Positions 1,786-26,104 of a DNA stretch of 64,000 nt are shown one piece after another. This stretch comes from an uncultured bacterium (GTDB lineage Bacteria > UBP6 > UBA1177): positions 5,188 to 69,187 of the forward strand of contig CAJOFY010000002.1 in the NCBI GenBank assembly GCA_905233945.1. Direction: 5' to 3'. Within the stretch, counting starts at the first letter, position 1. Each line of letters begins with the position of its first letter. The position numbers and the translations under genes are program-made. The notes below the pieces were generated by a model. It was given only the letters and a program-made list of their open reading frames with translations. It made no database searches and had not been told where the DNA came from.

Positions 1786-4209
1786 TTATTTATCAGCACA
1801 CTTTTCTCCGTTCCAGAATTTTCCGTTTTCGCACGGGTCGTTTGCAACACAGAATGTGTACACGGATTTGTATTCTTTAGGCGAGTAGAAATATTCTGCT
1901 GATGCATTCACTGCATTTGTTGTGGAAAGATGAGTTGAAGTGCTGAAATTCCATGAATATTCCTTGATGTTGGGCAGCCTCCAGTCAGAAATTCCGGCAT
2001 AATCAAGTTCCGAACAGTATTTCAGAGCCTCGGCCCATGTGTGGTTCAAATTTTCAGTTTTCACAAAAATCAGGTTTTTGTCATAACTCAACAGGAGATC
2101 CTTATAAGTTTCACTTGTAAACGTTTCTGACTTGCTGCTTTCACCTCTGACACAGCGTATGTTTAATGAAAACGGGCGTTTTTTCGGTTCGTTGTCCGAT
2201 GAAGTTGTAACATTGGATGTGATGTAAGGTTCTGCCGTGAAATTGATCACCTTGGCTTCATTATCGCATGTGGTGTATGTGGAACCGCCGGCACCTGGGC
2301 TGCCTGAACCGTGCTCGGAACAAACCTGCACAGTGTTGCTTGTCCAGAAAGCCGTTGTATATTCAGGAAAATATCCGGTATCGATCAGAGGCGGATATCT
2401 GCCGAAATCTGCGATAATTATAAATTCTTCCAGCGACGGCAGTCTCCAGTCGTCGTAACCGCCGTAAGTGAGATTTCCGCAGTACGAAAGCACGTCTTCA
2501 TAGTAAAGTTCTTCTATCGGCGGAATATTTTTCTGCCACCTAAGTCCTGTATTGTTGTCCGCTACAACAGGTTCTCCGGGAACGGTTTCTTCGATTGAAA
2601 AACTTTGCGGAACGCAGTAACCGAGTCTTGCATAATGCGCATCCTGGCCGGAAAACTCTTCTCCTTCCGCCGGGCAGGGAATCTCTTTTTCGTTGTCGTA
2701 GCATTTAAGCTGGCCTGTACAGATGTTCTCAGCCGCCGGCTTTTGTGTGCGGCAGCCTATATTATTACCGCGCCAGTAGTAGCCGTTATCACAGCTGCAC
2801 GAATAGGTAAAAGCATTTTCAGCTCTGCATTTTCCGGAAGCGTGTTCAAATTTTCCGCAATCAATGCCGGCACACGGATCGACGCATTTTTCACCGTTCC
2901 AGAAATATCCGTCAATGCATCCGCAGGAATATTTTTCCAGATCCTCTACATGACATTTTCCGTCGGAATGTTCTTTGTTGCCGCACGGATTCGGACTGCA
3001 GGGCGACACACATTCCTCCCCGTTCCAGAAGAAACCTCTTCTGCACAACTCGTTTCTGACACACACAATGTTGAAGTTGCTTGTTTTGAAAGAGCCTTCG
3101 CCAGCGCCGTCAATAGGTTCAACAACGAGAGCTTTTTCTTCGTTGATTGTTGTAGAAGACCAGAAATACGAATAATTCCACCATAAATAGTACATGGAAT
3201 TTTTCATTTGCTGTTCAAGTCCCGGAAGAAGTGCAGCCGGTCTATCTTTGGCGTGATCCACAATAGAATAAAGTTCGTTGATGTTTGGAAGTCTCCAGTC
3301 GGAAAAGCCGGCGTAAGTCAAATCTTCGCAAAAGGCAAGCGCATCATGCCAGTTACCGTAACTGTATTGCCTTAACCATGCGAGAGATGTTTCGTAATCT
3401 ATATCTATCGCTTTACCGGCAACATAGACTGTTTCAGTTGACGGATGAGTTTGCAGCGGCTCGCCTCTGACACAGCGCACATACTTTTTTTGAGTTTTTT
3501 CAGGCGGCCATACCCAGCCGGAGTTGTTATCGACATACCATGCATATAAATCACTCATAACAAACTCCTGCGCAGACCACACATTAAGACTTTCCTCGGA
3601 ATATGAAGAATAATTTCTGACACTCATCAGTTCTTTGGGAAACGGCAGTCTCCAGTCATCGTGACCGGCATATTCAAGTTTGTCACAATATTCAACAGCT
3701 TCATCCCAAGTGTAGGTTGAATCTGCAATTTCTTTCATCCATTCGATTTTCAGATTGTTGTCTAATAATGTAGGTTCGTCTTTGACAGAATTTTTTGTCG
3801 AAAAATCTTTTTCAATGCAGTAACCGAGTTTTGCGTACTGATAATCCTGGCCGTAAAAATCTTTTCCCTCTTTCGGACATGTTGTTCCTGTTTTGGCGTC
3901 ATAACACTCTCTCTGGCCGGTGCAGATGTTTGCGTAGGTTATCTTTTTGCATCCCGGATTTGCCCAGAAATAGCCTTCGACACAGTCGCATTCGTAAGCT
4001 TTCTCCTCAATGTTGGCAAAGTTTCCGCACGGATTTTCCTTTTCGGCATCTTCAGACACTTCCTCCTCAGCCGCATCCTCGTCCGGCAGAATGTCACTAT
4101 CGGCATCACTATCCGTCTTTTTCGAACCGCCGCACGAAACGGTGAGAAATACCGCTGTAACAAGTAAAAAAAGAAGTGTTTTCGCTGTATCAGTTATTCT
4201 CCGTTCCAT
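1786..4209 (-). CDS. DUF1566/EGF-like repeat lipoprotein, second of a tandem trio
   Basis: A 807-residue predicted lipoprotein. The signal segment TLLFLLVTAVFLTVSC ends in a lipobox Cys, then GGSKKTDSDADSD and an acidic tether. Four DUF1566 units are visible, each with a W-rich start, a YC..L.YAG..DWRLP core and a terminal CVR, at roughly residues 150-250, 265-390, 535-690 and 705-795. Between them are EGF-like units (C..NPCG..EHSDGKC) and two linkers ending FxGQDxxYAxLGYC. The chosen ATG has AAGGAG seven bases upstream and overlaps the last 16 bases of the preceding gene, which suggests translational coupling. The protein is closely similar in plan to both neighbours and probably arose by tandem duplication. 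DUF1566 (Lcl C-terminal-like) has no assigned activity; export to the cell surface is inferred. Confidence 0.92.
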   Translation of the reverse strand: MERRITDTAKTLLFLLVTAVFLTVSCGGSKKTDSDADSDILPDEDAAEEEVSEDAEKENPCGNFANIEEKAYECDCVEGYFWANPGCKKITYANICTGQRECYDAKTGTTCPKEGKDFYGQDYQYAKLGYCIEKDFSTKNSVKDEPTLLDNNLKIEWMKEIADSTYTWDEAVEYCDKLEYAGHDDWRLPFPKELMSVRNYSSYSEESLNVWSAQEFVMSDLYAWYVDNNSGWVWPPEKTQKKYVRCVRGEPLQTHPSTETVYVAGKAIDIDYETSLAWLRQYSYGNWHDALAFCEDLTYAGFSDWRLPNINELYSIVDHAKDRPAALLPGLEQQMKNSMYYLWWNYSYFWSSTTINEEKALVVEPIDGAGEGSFKTSNFNIVCVRNELCRRGFFWNGEECVSPCSPNPCGNKEHSDGKCHVEDLEKYSCGCIDGYFWNGEKCVDPCAGIDCGKFEHASGKCRAENAFTYSCSCDNGYYWRGNNIGCRTQKPAAENICTGQLKCYDNEKEIPCPAEGEEFSGQDAHYARLGYCVPQSFSIEETVPGEPVVADNNTGLRWQKNIPPIEELYYEDVLSYCGNLTYGGYDDWRLPSLEEFIIIADFGRYPPLIDTGYFPEYTTAFWTSNTVQVCSEHGSGSPGAGGSTYTTCDNEAKVINFTAEPYITSNVTTSSDNEPKKRPFSLNIRCVRGESSKSETFTSETYKDLLLSYDKNLIFVKTENLNHTWAEALKYCSELDYAGISDWRLPNIKEYSWNFSTSTHLSTTNAVNASAEYFYSPKEYKSVYTFCVANDPCENGKFWNGEKCADK

Positions 4210-19367: not shown

Positions 19368-21530
19368 ATGAAGAAAATCACAACACTTTTTTATCTTACG
19401 GCAGTTTCGCTGCTTTTGATTCTGGCAGCAGGCTGCGGCAATTCCGGTTCAGGCAGAAAACAGGGCGGAATTTACGGCGAATGTTTCAAGGATAATACCT
19501 GCGGTGACGGACTTGTATGCGATACGGAAAACAATGTGTGCATAAAAGACATGACCGCTGACAAAGATGCAGAAAATACTGATGATATTGAACCGGATGA
19601 CGATACAGATTGGGAAACAATTCCTGACGAGGATTCCGCTTCCGGCGAAAAAGACGACACCGATCCCTCGAAAGACGGATACGGAAACTGGAACGATCCG
19701 AAAACCGGTTTGATATGGTCAGAAAAGCATTTTGTTTCAGGGATGTCAGTACTGGATGATCTTATTTCATTCTGCGGCAACCTCGTCGAAGGCGGTTTCA
19801 GCGACTGGAGAATGCCTACAATTGACGAACTCAGAACACTGATTCAGAATTGCTCAAACACAGAACCTTACGGATTCTGCAAGATAAGCGAAGAGACCGG
19901 AGCTCTCTCCTGGGATGATGATTTCGATATATGGAGATGCAACTGTTTATGGAAAGACGAGTGGACTCAGCAGACAGGAAAAGATGAATTCGTTTATGAC
20001 AACGGCGGCTACTACAGCAAAATAGGCGATGATCAGAATGTTGCTCTCTGTTCTTCTTCTGTCAGTGATGACGGAGGCGCTCCATGGTGGGTCGGTTTTC
20101 GCACGGCCAGCATAGCACCCGCTTCTCTCGATAAGGGAGCTGTATTCCGCTGTGTAGGAAGTTATTCACGACAGAAACAGTGCGATGGACTTCCCGAAAA
20201 TGCAGGCTGGAACGTTTTTTCAGACATTCCGCAAAGATGGGACGGTTCATCATGGATTCCTGACGATGCGGCTTCCTACAATGAAAAACCGAGCGAGACG
20301 GAATGCAGGTTTATATGCAATCCGGGATACAAATGGAACGGTTCAGAGTGCGCTTTGCAGGATCTTGAAGCCATTTCCGAATGCAGCCATGGAAGCCCTG
20401 CACCGTGCCATGAGTCCTCAAGTGGTCTTATCTGGTCTGCGAAGGCACCGTATGAAATGCTGCACTATGATGCCGTTGATTACTGCGATAATCTTGCTGA
20501 AGGCGGACTCGGCGGCTGGCATCTGCCGACAATCAGCGAGCTCCGTACACTGATTCAGAATTGTCGCTGGACGGTTACAGGAGGGGACTGCAGGATTACA
20601 GATGATTGCCTTTCTGCAACAGCTTGCGAATACTCATATAGTCAATGTGATAATGATTGCAACAGTATTGGCGGCAACAATGGCGCTCACGTCATATACA
20701 GCAAATTCGGTGATGAAGGAGATTTTTTATCTTCATCTAAATTGGCAGATTACCCTGATGATGTGTGGGGTGTGAACTTTGATAAAGCTCAAATTCTGGC
20801 ATTCGGTACAGACGAAGTCTATCATAAAGCCAGTGTCCGCTGCGTAAAAAGCAAACAGGTTCGCAGGGAATGTACCGGACTCCCTGAAAATGCGCTCTGG
20901 AACAGCGTTTCAAGCATATTGCAGACATGCGACGAAACATCGTGCCTGCCGAGCGCGGTCGGGGTCTATAACGAAACTCCGAGCGAAACAGAATGCAGAT
21001 TCAAATGCTATCCCGGTTATGAGTGGGATGGTTCGAAATGCAATCTTACCAACCCTGAAGCTCTTTCGGAATGCGGTCCTGAAAGCCCTATGCCGTGCAT
21101 GGATCACTCAAGCGGTCTTGTCTGGTCTTCTAAAACTTCGACATCATGGGATATGCTGGATGCCGAAGATTACTGTGAAAACCTTACCGAAGGCGGGATC
21201 ACCGGCTGGCATCTGCCGACGATCAGCGAACTCAGGACTTTGATCGTGGACTGTCCTGCTACGGAGCCTGGCGGAGAATGCGGAGTTACTGATGACTGCC
21301 TGTCGAAAGAAGAGTGCTTGACAGAGAAGATCTGCTCCTGCGGTTATAATGACAATCACATCAAGTTCGGATATGAGGGTTATTATCTGCTCTCTTCTTC
21401 CAGAAACGGCGAAATTTATCACGGTGCAGAAGGAGATTACGAAAGAGTGTGGTGTGTTTACTGCAGCTATGCCAAGATAAAAGAGTGCAGTCTGATGTGG
21501 CCAGACCTCAATTTTCACTGTGTGAGGTAG
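19368..21530 (+). CDS. DUF1566-repeat lipoprotein (GLPENA linker type)
   Basis: 720 residues with the lipoprotein signal MKKITTLFYLTAVSLLLILAAGC. A short Cys unit (GECFKDNTCGDGLVCDTENNVC) and an acidic tether precede three DUF1566 domains, marked by GLIWS...FCGNLVEGGFSDWRMPTIDELRTLI, then GGWHLPTISELRTLI, then TGWHLPTISELRTLI. They are joined by two copies of a roughly 60-residue Cys-containing module with GLPENA.WN, WDGSSW, YNE and ECRF.C..GY.W.G..C. Its first 65 residues nearly match those of the next gene, showing recent duplication. GAGG precedes the ATG. Surface location is inferred; no function is known. Confidence 0.92.
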   Translation: MKKITTLFYLTAVSLLLILAAGCGNSGSGRKQGGIYGECFKDNTCGDGLVCDTENNVCIKDMTADKDAENTDDIEPDDDTDWETIPDEDSASGEKDDTDPSKDGYGNWNDPKTGLIWSEKHFVSGMSVLDDLISFCGNLVEGGFSDWRMPTIDELRTLIQNCSNTEPYGFCKISEETGALSWDDDFDIWRCNCLWKDEWTQQTGKDEFVYDNGGYYSKIGDDQNVALCSSSVSDDGGAPWWVGFRTASIAPASLDKGAVFRCVGSYSRQKQCDGLPENAGWNVFSDIPQRWDGSSWIPDDAASYNEKPSETECRFICNPGYKWNGSECALQDLEAISECSHGSPAPCHESSSGLIWSAKAPYEMLHYDAVDYCDNLAEGGLGGWHLPTISELRTLIQNCRWTVTGGDCRITDDCLSATACEYSYSQCDNDCNSIGGNNGAHVIYSKFGDEGDFLSSSKLADYPDDVWGVNFDKAQILAFGTDEVYHKASVRCVKSKQVRRECTGLPENALWNSVSSILQTCDETSCLPSAVGVYNETPSETECRFKCYPGYEWDGSKCNLTNPEALSECGPESPMPCMDHSSGLVWSSKTSTSWDMLDAEDYCENLTEGGITGWHLPTISELRTLIVDCPATEPGGECGVTDDCLSKEECLTEKICSCGYNDNHIKFGYEGYYLLSSSRNGEIYHGAEGDYERVWCVYCSYAKIKECSLMWPDLNFHCVR

Positions 21531-21534
21531 ATAG

Positions 21535-23232
21535 ATGAAAAAAATTGCGATTTGTATTCTGACGGTTTCGGCTCTGCTTGTCCTGATGATCGGTTGCGGC
21601 AGCAATTCGGGTTCAGGCAGGAATCAGGGTGAAATTTACGGCGAATGTTTTAAAGACAACACCTGCAACGAAGGGCTTGTCTGCGACACTGAGCATAACA
21701 CCTGTGTCAGAGATGAAGATTATTCTGATGATGCCGGGCCTGATACCGGAGATGATTATGATAACGAAGCTGATGATCAAAAAGATACTGCCGAGCCGGA
21801 AGAAGATAATGAAATATATGAAGAAACCATGCCTGACGATGTCGATGTCTATTGCTGGGAGTACAAGTGCAAAGACGGAAAAAGTTATTGCGGATATAAA
21901 AAAAACGGCGGTGAAATTAAATGGGCAAAAATTGAAACCTGCGCTTTTTCCGAATGTATCGCTTCCACCGGAAAATGCGGCTGTGACACTTCGGAAGACG
22001 GAAAAATACACTGCGAAAGCGACAAGCTTCATATTTGTTCCAACGGTAAATGGCAAATCACGGAACAATGCAAAGCCGGCTGCGATTCCGCGACAGACAG
22101 TTGCAGGCCGTGGGAAGATCCTGACAGCGGCCTGGAATGGTCAATGGAATCAAATGCCATGATTTGGAAAGATGCTGTCGATTATTGTGATAATCTTACC
22201 GAGGGTGGATTCAGCGACTGGCGGCTTCCGTCAATCAGTGAAGCCCGCACATTGATTCTGCACTGCCTGGAGACCAAAACAGGCGGACGATGTGGAGTTA
22301 CTGACACCTGCCTGTCGTCTGACTGCTGGAATTACAACTGCAGTCTGCTGTGCGATCCTAAACAAGACGGCTATTACAACAAAATGGATAACAGCCATAC
22401 AACTTCCAGTCTGTTCTGGTCTGCTTCAGAGGTTTCGGACAGCTTGATCCGCGCATGGGGCATTGAACTTTACACAGGCGGTGTTGCGGAAAAAGTCAAA
22501 AACGAATACGGCGTTGTCCGCTGTGTCAGAGGTGAAAATCACTTACGGCAGTGCAAAGGACTTCCGGAACACGCATTCTGGAACAGCGCTTCCGACATAT
22601 TTTCGACTTGGGACGGCTCATCATGGCAGCCTTCGCTGACAGGTGTTTACAATGAAACTTCAAGTGAAAAAGAGTGCAGATTCAAGTGCATTCCAGGATA
22701 CAAATGGGACGGATATAAATGTATATTGAGTGATGATTTGCCTGAATGCGCTCCTGAAAGCCCGACTCCTTGCAAGGATTATTCCAGCGGGCTGGTCTGG
22801 TCTTCGAAGTCTTCGGAAAAAAGTAATTGGAAAGATGCCGTCAATTATTGTTTAAGACATTCGGAAAACGTAGGCAAAGTGTGGTTCATGCCGACAATCG
22901 ACGAACTCAGAACGCTTGTCAAAAAGTGCCAGAAGGCGGAATACGGAGGAATATGCGCGATAAGTGAGGAAAACGATATTCTTTCTATTTATGATGTCGG
23001 AGAGAGGGAAAGCTGTTTTTGCTATGAAAAGGGCTCCGAATCCAGCGAATACAACAAATTCGGAGATTCCGGTTTGTTCTGGTCATCTTCCGCACGTTCG
23101 GACGATCCGGATTATATATGGGGTGTTTTCTACGGTTATATTTCATACGGTGCCGGCAGCTATAGCGGTGTTGAAATCATGAATTTTATCAAAACCTATG
23201 ATCGCGGTAATGTCCGCTGTGTCGCGAGATAA
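21535..23232 (+). CDS. DUF1566-repeat lipoprotein, paralog of the preceding gene
   Basis: 565 residues; signal MKKIAICILTVSALLVLMIGC, then GSNSGSGR and the same GECFKDNTC..GLVCDTE unit as the gene before it. After the acidic tether a Cys-rich region specific to this copy (about 105-185: CWEYKCKDGKSYCGYKKNGG..., CDTSEDGKIHCESDKLHICSNGKW) precedes two DUF1566 domains (FSDWRLPSISEARTLI and VWFMPTIDELRTLV) joined by one GLPEHA..ECRFKC module. It starts four bases after the upstream stop (RBS GAGG), so the two form one operon. Confidence 0.92.
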   Translation: MKKIAICILTVSALLVLMIGCGSNSGSGRNQGEIYGECFKDNTCNEGLVCDTEHNTCVRDEDYSDDAGPDTGDDYDNEADDQKDTAEPEEDNEIYEETMPDDVDVYCWEYKCKDGKSYCGYKKNGGEIKWAKIETCAFSECIASTGKCGCDTSEDGKIHCESDKLHICSNGKWQITEQCKAGCDSATDSCRPWEDPDSGLEWSMESNAMIWKDAVDYCDNLTEGGFSDWRLPSISEARTLILHCLETKTGGRCGVTDTCLSSDCWNYNCSLLCDPKQDGYYNKMDNSHTTSSLFWSASEVSDSLIRAWGIELYTGGVAEKVKNEYGVVRCVRGENHLRQCKGLPEHAFWNSASDIFSTWDGSSWQPSLTGVYNETSSEKECRFKCIPGYKWDGYKCILSDDLPECAPESPTPCKDYSSGLVWSSKSSEKSNWKDAVNYCLRHSENVGKVWFMPTIDELRTLVKKCQKAEYGGICAISEENDILSIYDVGERESCFCYEKGSESSEYNKFGDSGLFWSSSARSDDPDYIWGVFYGYISYGAGSYSGVEIMNFIKTYDRGNVRCVAR

Positions 23233-23284: not shown

Positions 23285-24484
23285 ATGATGCTGGTTTATC
23301 CTTTCAATGTTTTTGACGAAGAACACGGATCCCTGATGAAGAAACTCGGGGTCTCTGAGTGCGGTTCTGCGATAATGCGCGGACGTTTCGGCACGGAATC
23401 GTTTTTGGTTTCGGATATTTCGACTCCGGCGGCAAATGTCGTAAAGCAGCAGGTTCTTGCTCTTGGCGGCGAGGCTGCGGTTCCGGCGCATGCTGTAAAC
23501 TGCTCGAAACCGAAAAGCGATTTCGTTTTTTCACTCAGAAGCGACAAAATCCCTGAATTTGTTTCACGCATGAAAGCTCAATGCTGGAAACTGCCTCAAG
23601 TTGCGGATTTTGTCGAAAAATTTGTCGGATCTCAGAAGCCGTGGTTTTCTTTTTCCCATCCCGGGATCGACACGACGCGGCCGAATATCATGGGGATCCT
23701 CAATGTTACTCCGGACTCTTTTTCGGACGGCGGAAGCTGGACGGATATCGATGCCGCTTTGAAACATGTTTCCGGAATGCTTGAAAACGGTGCCGATATA
23801 ATCGATGTCGGCGGCGAATCTACGCGCCCGGGAAGTGATCCGGTCGATGCCGAAACCGAGAAAAAGCGCGTTGTTCCCGTTATCACTGAGATAAAAAAAC
23901 AGTTTCCCAAGACTGTGATTTCCATCGACACCGTGAAAAGTTCCGTTGCTGACGCTGCGATAAATGCCGGTGCGGAAATCGTGAACGACGTAAGCGGTCT
24001 CACTTTTGATCCGGAAATGGCTTCAGTCTGCGCCGGTGCTGGAAAACCTGTTGTGATCGGCCACATAAAAGGCTCGCCGAAAGATATGCAGCAGAATCCG
24101 GTTTATGAAAATCTGTTCGGCGAAATGCTTGATTTTTTCAATAAATCGAAAGACCAGCTGCTTTCAAAGGGTCTCGCGGAAAGCAAAATCATTATCGATC
24201 CGGGAATCGGTTTCGGCAAAACCCTCGAGCACAATTTAGCGATAATAAAACACCTTGAAGTCTTCTTCTCATGTCTGAATCCTGTTGCGGTCGGTTTCAG
24301 CCGCAAAAGCATGATCGGAGCACTCTGCGGAAGAAAAGATCCGCTTGAAAGGCTTGCGGGAACAGTCACACTTGATACAATCGCTTTAGAAAAGGGTGCT
24401 GCAATCATAAGAGTCCACGATGTAAAAGAAGCAAAAGATACTTTAGAAATATTCAACGCTTTAAAGGAGCCGTCGGCTTTTTGA
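23285..24484 (+). CDS. folP: Dihydropteroate synthase
   Basis: FolP condenses 6-hydroxymethyl-dihydropterin pyrophosphate with p-aminobenzoate in folate synthesis. Signature motifs sit in the C-terminal two thirds: RPNIMGILNVTPDSFSDGG, ADIIDVGGESTRPGS, ISIDTVKSSVADAAINAGAEIVNDVSG, IIIDPGIGFGKT and VGFSRKSMIG. The protein has 399 residues, about 120 more than the classical enzyme; the extra N-terminal part is shared by some bacterial homologs and has no assigned role. Two adjacent ATGs (23285, 23288) are possible; the GAGG just upstream fits 23288 better. The gene stands alone between the lipoproteins and the toxin-antitoxin pair. Confidence 0.93.
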   Translation: MMLVYPFNVFDEEHGSLMKKLGVSECGSAIMRGRFGTESFLVSDISTPAANVVKQQVLALGGEAAVPAHAVNCSKPKSDFVFSLRSDKIPEFVSRMKAQCWKLPQVADFVEKFVGSQKPWFSFSHPGIDTTRPNIMGILNVTPDSFSDGGSWTDIDAALKHVSGMLENGADIIDVGGESTRPGSDPVDAETEKKRVVPVITEIKKQFPKTVISIDTVKSSVADAAINAGAEIVNDVSGLTFDPEMASVCAGAGKPVVIGHIKGSPKDMQQNPVYENLFGEMLDFFNKSKDQLLSKGLAESKIIIDPGIGFGKTLEHNLAIIKHLEVFFSCLNPVAVGFSRKSMIGALCGRKDPLERLAGTVTLDTIALEKGAAIIRVHDVKEAKDTLEIFNALKEPSAF

Positions 24485-24526
24485 GCCTTGCCACAGCACT
24501 CTTTGCATCAATTGATACATTTTTGA

Positions 24527-24560
24527 TTGACAAAACCGACAATTTGTGTACCATAATGGT
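24527..24560 (+). promoter_or_regulatory. Promoter with overlapping palindrome of the toxin-antitoxin pair
   Basis: TTGACA (24527-24532), 16-base spacer, TACCAT (24549-24554). The perfect palindrome ACCAT-A-ATGGT (24550-24560) covers the -10 box, a typical place for antitoxin autorepression. Confidence 0.55.
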
Positions 24561-24575
24561 CCGGAGGTGCAAAAA

Positions 24576-24986
24576 ATGAACCCATATTACAACCAAAATT
24601 ATACTCGTGAAGATATTGATTTGATTCTTGCAAAAATCAAGTCTTGCGTAGAGAACAACCGTTACACGATTGCATTAAATGAAAACCGGAAGGAAAATAT
24701 AGATTTTATCAATGAGTACAATATCCGCAGCGACAAACAGCGTTCTATTTTGATGCAGATTAAGACCAAAGATTTTTGTCACTCGCTTCAGAATACGAAA
24801 CTGGGGTATGAATATGAAGTTCTCTATGTGTTTGTTCCGCAAGTTCAGCTTTTCAATGCCGAAGGTGAAGAAGAAACTGTAGATGTTTATACAAAATTTA
24901 ACATTATTGATCTTCCGTCCGGAAGTCGGGCTGTTGTTGTTTCATTCCACAAGAAGAACAAACCGGTTGAATATTTGTTTCGTTAG
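24576..24986 (+). CDS. Putative toxin of a Panacea-type toxin-antitoxin pair (possibly MqsR-like)
   Basis: 136 residues beginning MNPYYNQNYTREDIDLILAKI; a GTG 30 bases upstream is in frame but GGAGG nine bases before 24576 fixes the ATG. The pattern is an N-terminal helix (DIDLILAKIKSCVENNRYTI), a middle helical region with TKDFCHSL, then beta strands YEYEVLYVFVPQ, VDVYTKFNIIDL and SRAVVVSFHKKN. This order resembles MqsR-type mRNA interferases, though the product is longer and the match is by eye only. Its position directly before a gene encoding an antitoxin-like protein (18-base gap) is the main argument for a toxin. Other toxin families also pair with Panacea domains. Confidence 0.55.
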   Translation: MNPYYNQNYTREDIDLILAKIKSCVENNRYTIALNENRKENIDFINEYNIRSDKQRSILMQIKTKDFCHSLQNTKLGYEYEVLYVFVPQVQLFNAEGEEETVDVYTKFNIIDLPSGSRAVVVSFHKKNKPVEYLFR

Positions 24987-25004
24987 GGTCGTGAGGAGGA
25001 AAAA

Positions 25005-26000
25005 ATGGATAATAACAAAAAAGTATTCTGTGAAGAGTGCAGAAAAGATGTCAATTATGTCGTCAGTCGAATTTCAATGATCGGAAAGATAAAGGAAAAA
25101 GAATATGTCTACACAGGCATGGAAGCTAAATGTGCTGATTGCGGATCTTTTGTTTTCGTGCCGGAACTGAATGACGGGAATCTGAAAGCTCTCTATGACG
25201 TTTATCGTGAAAAGAACGGCATTATTTCACTTGAAACTATTTTGGCTATTCCCCGGAAATACGACATCGGAAAACGTCCTCTTTCGATTCTGCTTGGGTG
25301 GGGCGAACAGACTTTTACCCGTTACTGTGACGGCGATATGCCTACAAAGCAATATTCCGATATTTTGATTCGGATATATTCCGATCCTGCTTATTACCTG
25401 GAAATACTGGAGGCAGGAAAAGAAAAACTGGCGACACATTCATACGAAAAAAGCAAAAAGGCTGCTGATACATTGCTGAAAAGCCAGATGCCGGCAAAAA
25501 GCAAGATAGATACGGTCATCAGGTATGTTTTGAATCAGTGTGAAGACATTACGCCGCTGGCATTGCAGAAAGCTGTCTACTATATTCAAGGGTTTTACTG
25601 TGCTTTTTACGGGACTTTCCTTTTTCAGGAGGATTGTCAGGCATGGGTTCACGGACCAGTCTACAAAGATATTTACTTCCGCTACAAAAATTACAGGTTT
25701 GACCCCATCGGTAAATCGGAAAATTTTGATGTTTCGGTCTTTTCTTCCGGAGAAAAAGCAATTTGTGACAGTGTTATTCAGAATATATGCTGTTACAGCG
25801 GAAAAGTTCTGGAACGGTTTACGCACAATGAAACTCCGTGGCTTGCCGCAAGAGGCGATCTGCCGGTTACTGCTTCTTCAGACCGCATAATAGAAAAAGT
25901 GCTGATCAAAAAATATTTCGATGCAGTAAAACGAAAATACAGCATGGTTAATCCAAGCGACATAAAAGCGTATGCCGAAGATATGTTCAGAGCATTCTGA
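25005..26000 (+). CDS. Antitoxin-like protein: zinc ribbon + HTH + Panacea (SocA/DUF4065) domain
   Basis: 331 residues in three parts. An N-terminal zinc ribbon has paired cysteines C9/C12 and C43/C46, as in MqsA/YgiT-type antitoxins. An HTH region (about 65-130: YREKNGIISLETILAI...LSILLGWGEQTFTRYCDGDMPTKQYSDIL) should bind the promoter. The C-terminal Panacea domain (about 165-300) shows ITPLALQKAVYYIQGFYCAFYGTFLFQEDCQAWVHGPVYKDIYFRY. Panacea is known as a promiscuous toxin-neutralising domain. AGGAGG lies just before the ATG. Autoregulation through the palindrome at 24550-24560 is inferred. Confidence 0.85.
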   Translation: MDNNKKVFCEECRKDVNYVVSRISMIGKIKEKEYVYTGMEAKCADCGSFVFVPELNDGNLKALYDVYREKNGIISLETILAIPRKYDIGKRPLSILLGWGEQTFTRYCDGDMPTKQYSDILIRIYSDPAYYLEILEAGKEKLATHSYEKSKKAADTLLKSQMPAKSKIDTVIRYVLNQCEDITPLALQKAVYYIQGFYCAFYGTFLFQEDCQAWVHGPVYKDIYFRYKNYRFDPIGKSENFDVSVFSSGEKAICDSVIQNICCYSGKVLERFTHNETPWLAARGDLPVTASSDRIIEKVLIKKYFDAVKRKYSMVNPSDIKAYAEDMFRAF

Positions 26001-26041
26001 TTTTTGTGTTCACAGCCTTTGCTTTTGTCAGGTACTTTCAT

Positions 26042-26069
26042 TTGACTTGTCGGCTTTAACTTGTAAAAT
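26042..26069 (+). promoter_or_regulatory. Promoter of the cdaA operon
   Basis: TTGACT (26042-26047), 16-base spacer, TAAAAT (26064-26069), 35 bases before the ATG. Confidence 0.55.
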
Positions 26070-26104
26070 TCCGAGTTTTGTGTTTTTGAGGTAAAGGAGC
26101 CGTC

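Follow-up and report, generated by a model that had tools for sequence, protein, structure and literature searches.

The window, a 64,000-nucleotide stretch of DNA from an uncultured bacterium, encodes an antitoxin with a Panacea domain beside a 136-residue protein of uncertain kind, which raises the question of what toxin this antitoxin controls and how the pair is regulated. The initial annotation offered two readings of the toxin, a longer relative of MqsR or a new type.

Two tandem genes form a Panacea-type toxin-antitoxin pair

The pair consists of two open reading frames that lie in tandem on the + strand with 18 bp between them, the toxin gene first (24576-24986, ATG to TAG, 136 aa; MqsR-like, phrog_34059) and the antitoxin gene second (25005-26000, ATG to TGA, 331 aa; PanA type). 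A purine-rich Shine-Dalgarno-like sequence precedes each frame. A relative of the toxin is encoded immediately upstream of the antitoxin in 55 of 55 related loci, which were drawn from genome contigs, viral contigs, and plasmids and include loci retrieved by the antitoxin alone. The antitoxin thus has the adjacent cognate toxin gene with conserved linkage that identifies a Panacea antitoxin (PanA). Comparison of the window with a sister genome, G013, gave dN/dS values of 0.06 for the toxin and 0.10 for the antitoxin, which indicates purifying selection on both. We conclude that the gene pair is a real and stable unit, and the initial description of a Panacea-type toxin-antitoxin pair holds. 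The toxin frames of two related loci, L020 (near 4001-4208) and L022 (near 3352-3785), look truncated or frameshifted beside intact antitoxins, which would reflect either decay or assembly error.

The antitoxin was initially described as an MqsA-like zinc ribbon and helix-turn-helix (HTH) joined to a Panacea domain, and the profile searches bear this out. The Panacea domain (PF13274, SocA_Panacea) scores 65.3 bits (E=1e-17) over residues 187-279, above the cut-off of 25.7, and together with C-terminal helices it occupies 25563-25997 (+ strand). The N-terminus matches both MqsA antitoxin models significantly, yet under their curated cut-offs: PF15731 at E=4e-4 (20.9 bits against 30) and TIGR03830 at E=2e-15 (56.5 bits against 61.8). 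This MqsA-type zinc-binding domain spans residues 1-70 (25005-25214, + strand), is predicted to contain two long strands and an 18-residue helix, and carries Cys9, Cys12, Cys43, and Cys46, which are invariant across 19 sequences. The zinc ligands of Escherichia coli MqsA are Cys3, Cys6, Cys37, and Cys40 (PMC2791442), and the spacing of the four cysteines is identical in the two proteins. An XRE-like HTH domain of five helices follows at residues 76-137 (25230-25415, + strand), as delineated by a search with the antitoxin-family profile A2 and by the predicted model; in hmmsearch, this profile also picks out solved MqsA proteins (3gn5 and 2kz8, E=6e-4). In the predicted model, the zinc part is followed by the five-helix HTH and then by a mostly helical Panacea part.

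The toxin is probably a long, divergent relative of MqsR

The initial annotation placed the 136-residue partner in no family with certainty, and indeed it has no significant Pfam or NCBIfam match of its own. PADLOC likewise returned nothing usable, and weak matches such as Mannosyl_trans2 were set aside as chance. The partner does match phrog_34059, a PHROG of unknown function (E=3e-18). The MqsR_toxin model PF15723 (Pfam cut-off 26.2 bits) does not match the window toxin, and relatives of the toxin score 17.9-21.7 bits. When toxin profiles A3 and A7 were aligned with the canonical MqsR profile A5 by hhalign, the match had E=2e-5 and a probability of 76-78, which are single pairwise E-values and thus good, not overwhelming. 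The aligned region of 88 columns spans MqsR almost end to end; the input was a profile of 31 toxin relatives against seven canonical MqsR sequences from plasmids, and a broader profile gave the same result. Distant toxin relatives that are also partnered with Panacea antitoxins match PF15723 over nearly the full profile at E=2.8e-4 to 4.4e-3, and the depositors of one such bridging relative, MPV1_17 from a Marinitoga phage (phrog_34059), described it as a putative toxin. All of these links between the toxin and MqsR fall below curated cut-offs. A search for MqsR_toxin in 41 genomes, comprising the host's own and those of its relatives, found none, and control genomes gave none either.

In a joint alignment, Tyr105, Lys107, Ser123, and Phe124 of the toxin fall on Tyr81, Lys83, Ser94, and Phe95 of MqsR. 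Tyr81 is essential in MqsR (PMC9636575), and Tyr105, Lys107, Ser123, and His125 are invariant among the toxin's relatives. The essential Lys56 of MqsR is replaced by His69 in the window toxin and by Tyr or Lys in relatives, and the SFK motif of MqsR becomes SFH (S-F/C-H in every aligned member), which replaces Lys96. Because of these two replacements, the chemistry of the toxin may differ from that of MqsR. The full-length profile match, the bridging homologues, the tyrosine at the position of Tyr81, and the MqsA-type partner together lead us to regard the toxin as a relative of MqsR, probably a long and divergent MqsR-like protein that shares its homology and probable mechanism and stands outside formal PF15723 membership.

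The toxin model is confident (pLDDT 93) and comprises three helices followed by a beta-sheet. The PDB yielded no significant sequence match to the toxin or to profiles A1 and A7, and Foldseek of the model against the PDB returned nothing at E<=0.001, with no MqsR among the top 50. Most PDB returns were NTF2-like and CaMKII-hub folds at E>0.005, which we did not accept; this was also true of a read-through model, in which the toxin and antitoxin were folded as one chain by in-frame read-through with the TAG codon as Gln. The read-through model has a pTM of 0.42 and supports no interface. Against viral models, Foldseek gave one strong match, to a phage protein of 124 aa. It carries the label 'HTH-type transcriptional regulator' but may be an MqsR-like protein under the wrong name.

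The pair resembles known MqsR:PanA systems

In an experimentally tested pair of this architecture, the MqsR toxin proved toxic, was neutralised by the zinc domain, and depended on one tyrosine (Ernits et al. 2023, PMC10440598). The MqsR(D2):PanA systems of B. fungorum and L. rossiae (PMC10440598) resemble the window pair in combining an MqsR-type toxin, with a predicted catalytic tyrosine, and a Panacea antitoxin. The ZBD-HTH-Panacea composition of the window antitoxin recurs in B. fungorum PanA; the catalytic tyrosine of the B. fungorum toxin is residue 97, and its putative counterpart in the window toxin is residue 105. In both MqsA and B. fungorum PanA, neutralisation of MqsR falls to the zinc domain, and in the latter it does not require the Panacea domain (PMC10440598). 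With its ZBD-HTH-Panacea antitoxin and apparent MqsR-type toxin, the window pair has the MqsR(D2):PanA composition.

The E. coli MqsR/MqsA pair has the toxin-first operon, the zinc domain, and the HTH that we find in the window, and its toxin has the Y-x-K ... S-F motif and the Tyr81 position in common with the window toxin. In contrast, MqsA lacks the Panacea domain that is added in the window antitoxin, and MqsR is 98 aa long, whereas the window toxin, at 136 aa, has insertions on either side of the tyrosine strand as well as a C-terminal NKPxxYLFR tail. Lys56 and SFK of MqsR also contrast with His and SFH in the window toxin. Phage pairs such as MPV1_17/19 of the Marinitoga phage (phrog_34059) and orf20/orf21 of Lactococcus phage bIL311 also have a short SFH-type MqsR-like protein ahead of a Panacea antitoxin, although those toxins are shorter (about 98-108 aa) and the N-termini of their antitoxins are shorter or diverged. 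The type VI pair SocA/SocB shares only the Panacea (SocA) domain with the window antitoxin: SocA has neither a zinc nor an HTH domain, SocB is an unrelated toxin, and neutralisation is proteolytic.

Of the two readings offered initially, the longer MqsR relative is therefore favoured by the profile-profile match, the bridging homologues, and Tyr105, and the new type falls away with the architecture already known (PMC10440598). Studies from 2022-2023 demonstrated the Panacea toxin-antitoxin kind and an MqsR:PanA pair of this composition, along with its toxicity, what its zinc domain does, and a catalytic tyrosine (PMC8832971, PMC10440598). The pair is a well-formed but ordinary example and leaves the general understanding of toxin-antitoxin systems unchanged. 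What it adds is a previously unrecognised toxin family tied to MqsR, with altered catalytic positions, a conserved candidate operator, and a case of transfer. The toxins of this family, which Pfam and NCBIfam miss, gain a name and a probable mechanism; they are annotated as 'hypothetical protein' beside 'SocA domain-containing' antitoxins on plasmids of Clostridioides, Paenibacillus, and Lysinibacillus, and they also occur on viral contigs.

A conserved palindrome upstream of the promoter is a candidate operator

Upstream of the toxin gene, on the + strand, the sequence contains a -35 box, TTGACA (24527-24532), that is conserved in most relatives. Comparison of upstream regions points to TACCAT (24549-24554) as the probable -10 box, which corresponds to TATCAT located 16-17 bp after TTGACA in relatives; CATAAT (24552-24557, + strand) is an alternative. 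The initial annotation placed a perfect palindrome on the -10 box. That palindrome, ACCATAATGGT, is indeed present at 24550-24560 (+ strand), next to the -10 region, and consists of two 5-bp arms around one central A, but the suggestion that it has a regulatory role did not survive comparison. Five inverted repeats with 5-bp arms, including ACCATAATGGT, occur in the 110 bp upstream, where shuffled sequences average 1.25. Among the related loci, ACCATAATGGT was found in none; it is present only in the window's own copies, and relatives have GTATCAT... in its place. We therefore ruled out ACCATAATGGT as an operator, and its symmetry is probably due to chance.

The conserved element is instead TGCATCAATTGATACA (24504-24519, + strand), which is palindromic at 7 of 8 pairs, ends 7 bp upstream of the -35 box, and falls outside the segment covered by the initial annotation (24527-26000). 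Of 33 related upstream regions, 29 contain its consensus, TGYAYYAATTRRTRCA, with two or fewer mismatches, compared with 0.9% of shuffled ones; this comparison is not independent because the consensus was derived from the same upstream regions. Where TTGAC is present in relatives, it nearly always lies 6-7 bp beyond the palindrome. Distant members have the palindrome too, and among the longer perfect versions are those of L004 and L015, in which both half-sites have changed together. The exact TGYAYYAATTRRTRCA pattern occurs once in the 2.65-Mb genome, at the toxin-antitoxin promoter. From this pattern of conservation, we put forward TGCATCAATTGATACA as a concrete and likely candidate for the operator bound by the antitoxin.

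The cassette appears to have entered between folP and cdaA from a Clostridia-like donor

Among 28 genomes from the host's phylum, only two encode the toxin, and they belong to a single genus. In the antitoxin tree, the window and its sister are nested among sequences of Lachnospiraceae and other Eubacteriales with support of 97/95. The host encodes several Omp85 proteins, which marks it as a diderm and not an ordinary member of the Lachnospiraceae/Eubacteriales group. The GC content of the cassette is 39.5% versus 46%, the lowest of any 1.5-kb stretch in the window. Based on the narrow distribution within the phylum, the nearest kin in Clostridia, and the low GC content, we regard the cassette as a horizontal acquisition from a Clostridia-like donor. 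It documents how such a pair moved out of Clostridia into a lineage unrelated to them, where it landed between two housekeeping genes.

In eleven sister genomes, folP overlaps cdaA directly. The overlap in sister species is located at TAAAGGAGCCGTC, and in the window this 13-bp sequence borders both ends of a 1.6-kb insert as a direct repeat, with the left copy (24462-24474, + strand) at the 3' end of folP and the right copy (26092-26104, + strand) at the ribosome-binding site of cdaA. With TAAAGGAGCCGTC at both ends of the insert, the end of folP and the ribosome-binding site of cdaA are both preserved.

The folP-cdaA junction is variable within the genus (window 24462-26104; L075, L076): the two genes overlap in 11 genomes and are parted by the toxin-antitoxin pair in the window's own genome (G000), by two Lcl_C-type lipoproteins together with the toxin-antitoxin pair in G013, and by two other secreted-protein genes in G011. 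When folP and cdaA are parted, cdaA is preceded by a promoter-like stretch (26036-26091) that resembles the one upstream of folP. At 19368-23232, the window encodes two large lipoproteins side by side, each with repeats of the Lcl_C domain (PF07603); in G013, similar genes are found across folP from this position, adjoining the toxin-antitoxin pair. Between G000 and G013 (L076), dS is about 0.8 in the toxin-antitoxin genes and 1.1-1.3 in folP and cdaA, and the lower value may reflect a later transfer between the two lineages.

Proposed mechanism and alternatives

We consider it probable that the pair is an MqsR:PanA operon, a toxin-antitoxin system of type II. By analogy with its homologues, the free toxin would act as an RNase, with Tyr105 (the equivalent of Tyr81 in MqsR) as its catalytic residue, and would halt translation by cleaving mRNA. 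As in MqsA, and in line with the part played by the zinc domain in B. fungorum PanA, the N-terminal zinc domain of the antitoxin would bind the toxin and block its access to RNA. The conservation of TGCATCAATTGATACA suggests that an HTH dimer could bind this site and so couple transcription of the operon to the amount of free antitoxin, and the Panacea domain may sense a cue and then set the toxin free or switch it on, as hypothesised by Ernits et al. (PMC10440598). The cassette itself would have come from a Clostridia-like donor and settled between folP and cdaA with neither gene broken.

The main competing explanation is that the toxin has an unrelated new fold or activity and merely shares an MqsA-type antitoxin. 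Panacea antitoxins are hyperpromiscuous and pair with dozens of toxin kinds (PMC8832971), and such a reading would also fit the failure of Foldseek to match a solved structure and the lack of a Pfam match. However, the zinc domain of such antitoxins is the part that binds MqsR (PMC10440598), and the full-length profile-profile match, the bridging homologues with MqsR_toxin matches, and the conserved Y-x-K ... SF motif all connect the toxin itself to MqsR, which makes an unrelated fold unlikely. Less likely still is a mainly regulatory pair, or one for plasmid or prophage maintenance, whose upstream protein has lost its toxicity and is kept for the antitoxin's transcriptional control. The constraint on the toxin, as strong as or stronger than that on the antitoxin (dN/dS 0.06 versus 0.10), and the invariance of the putative catalytic tyrosine in all members speak against a protein that has lost its activity, even though Lys56 and Lys96 of MqsR are replaced and the L020 and L022 toxins are apparently broken beside intact antitoxins.

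The identity of the Panacea and SocA domains also invites a type VI model like that of SocAB, in which the Panacea protein would act as an adaptor and deliver the toxin to ClpXP for degradation. The antitoxin does match NF047745 weakly over 65 residues, but at 35.7 bits against a cut-off of 190, and we rejected SocAB-like action on this equivalog score. PanATs tested so far form type II complexes (PMC8832971), and the window antitoxin has a dedicated zinc-binding neutralisation domain, which together leave a type VI mechanism extremely improbable.

Within the MqsR:PanA reading, a bolder version is possible, although we hold it to be doubtful: the Panacea-linked 'SFH' toxins could constitute a separate branch of MqsR in which the active site has been remodelled (Tyr + His for Tyr + Lys), possibly with another RNA target. 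The operator shared across this family would have its centre roughly 50 bp ahead of the inferred transcription start, a position from which antitoxin, once bound, could activate or tune the promoter instead of just blocking it.

The same genome encodes other Panacea proteins. At L093 (contig C49, 1389-2244), a Panacea protein with neither a zinc nor an HTH domain precedes a protein of 123 aa that appears to contain a membrane stretch, and at L094 (contig C27, 1377-2334), another such Panacea protein is followed by a 146-aa protein. These are probably two further Panacea toxin-antitoxin pairs.
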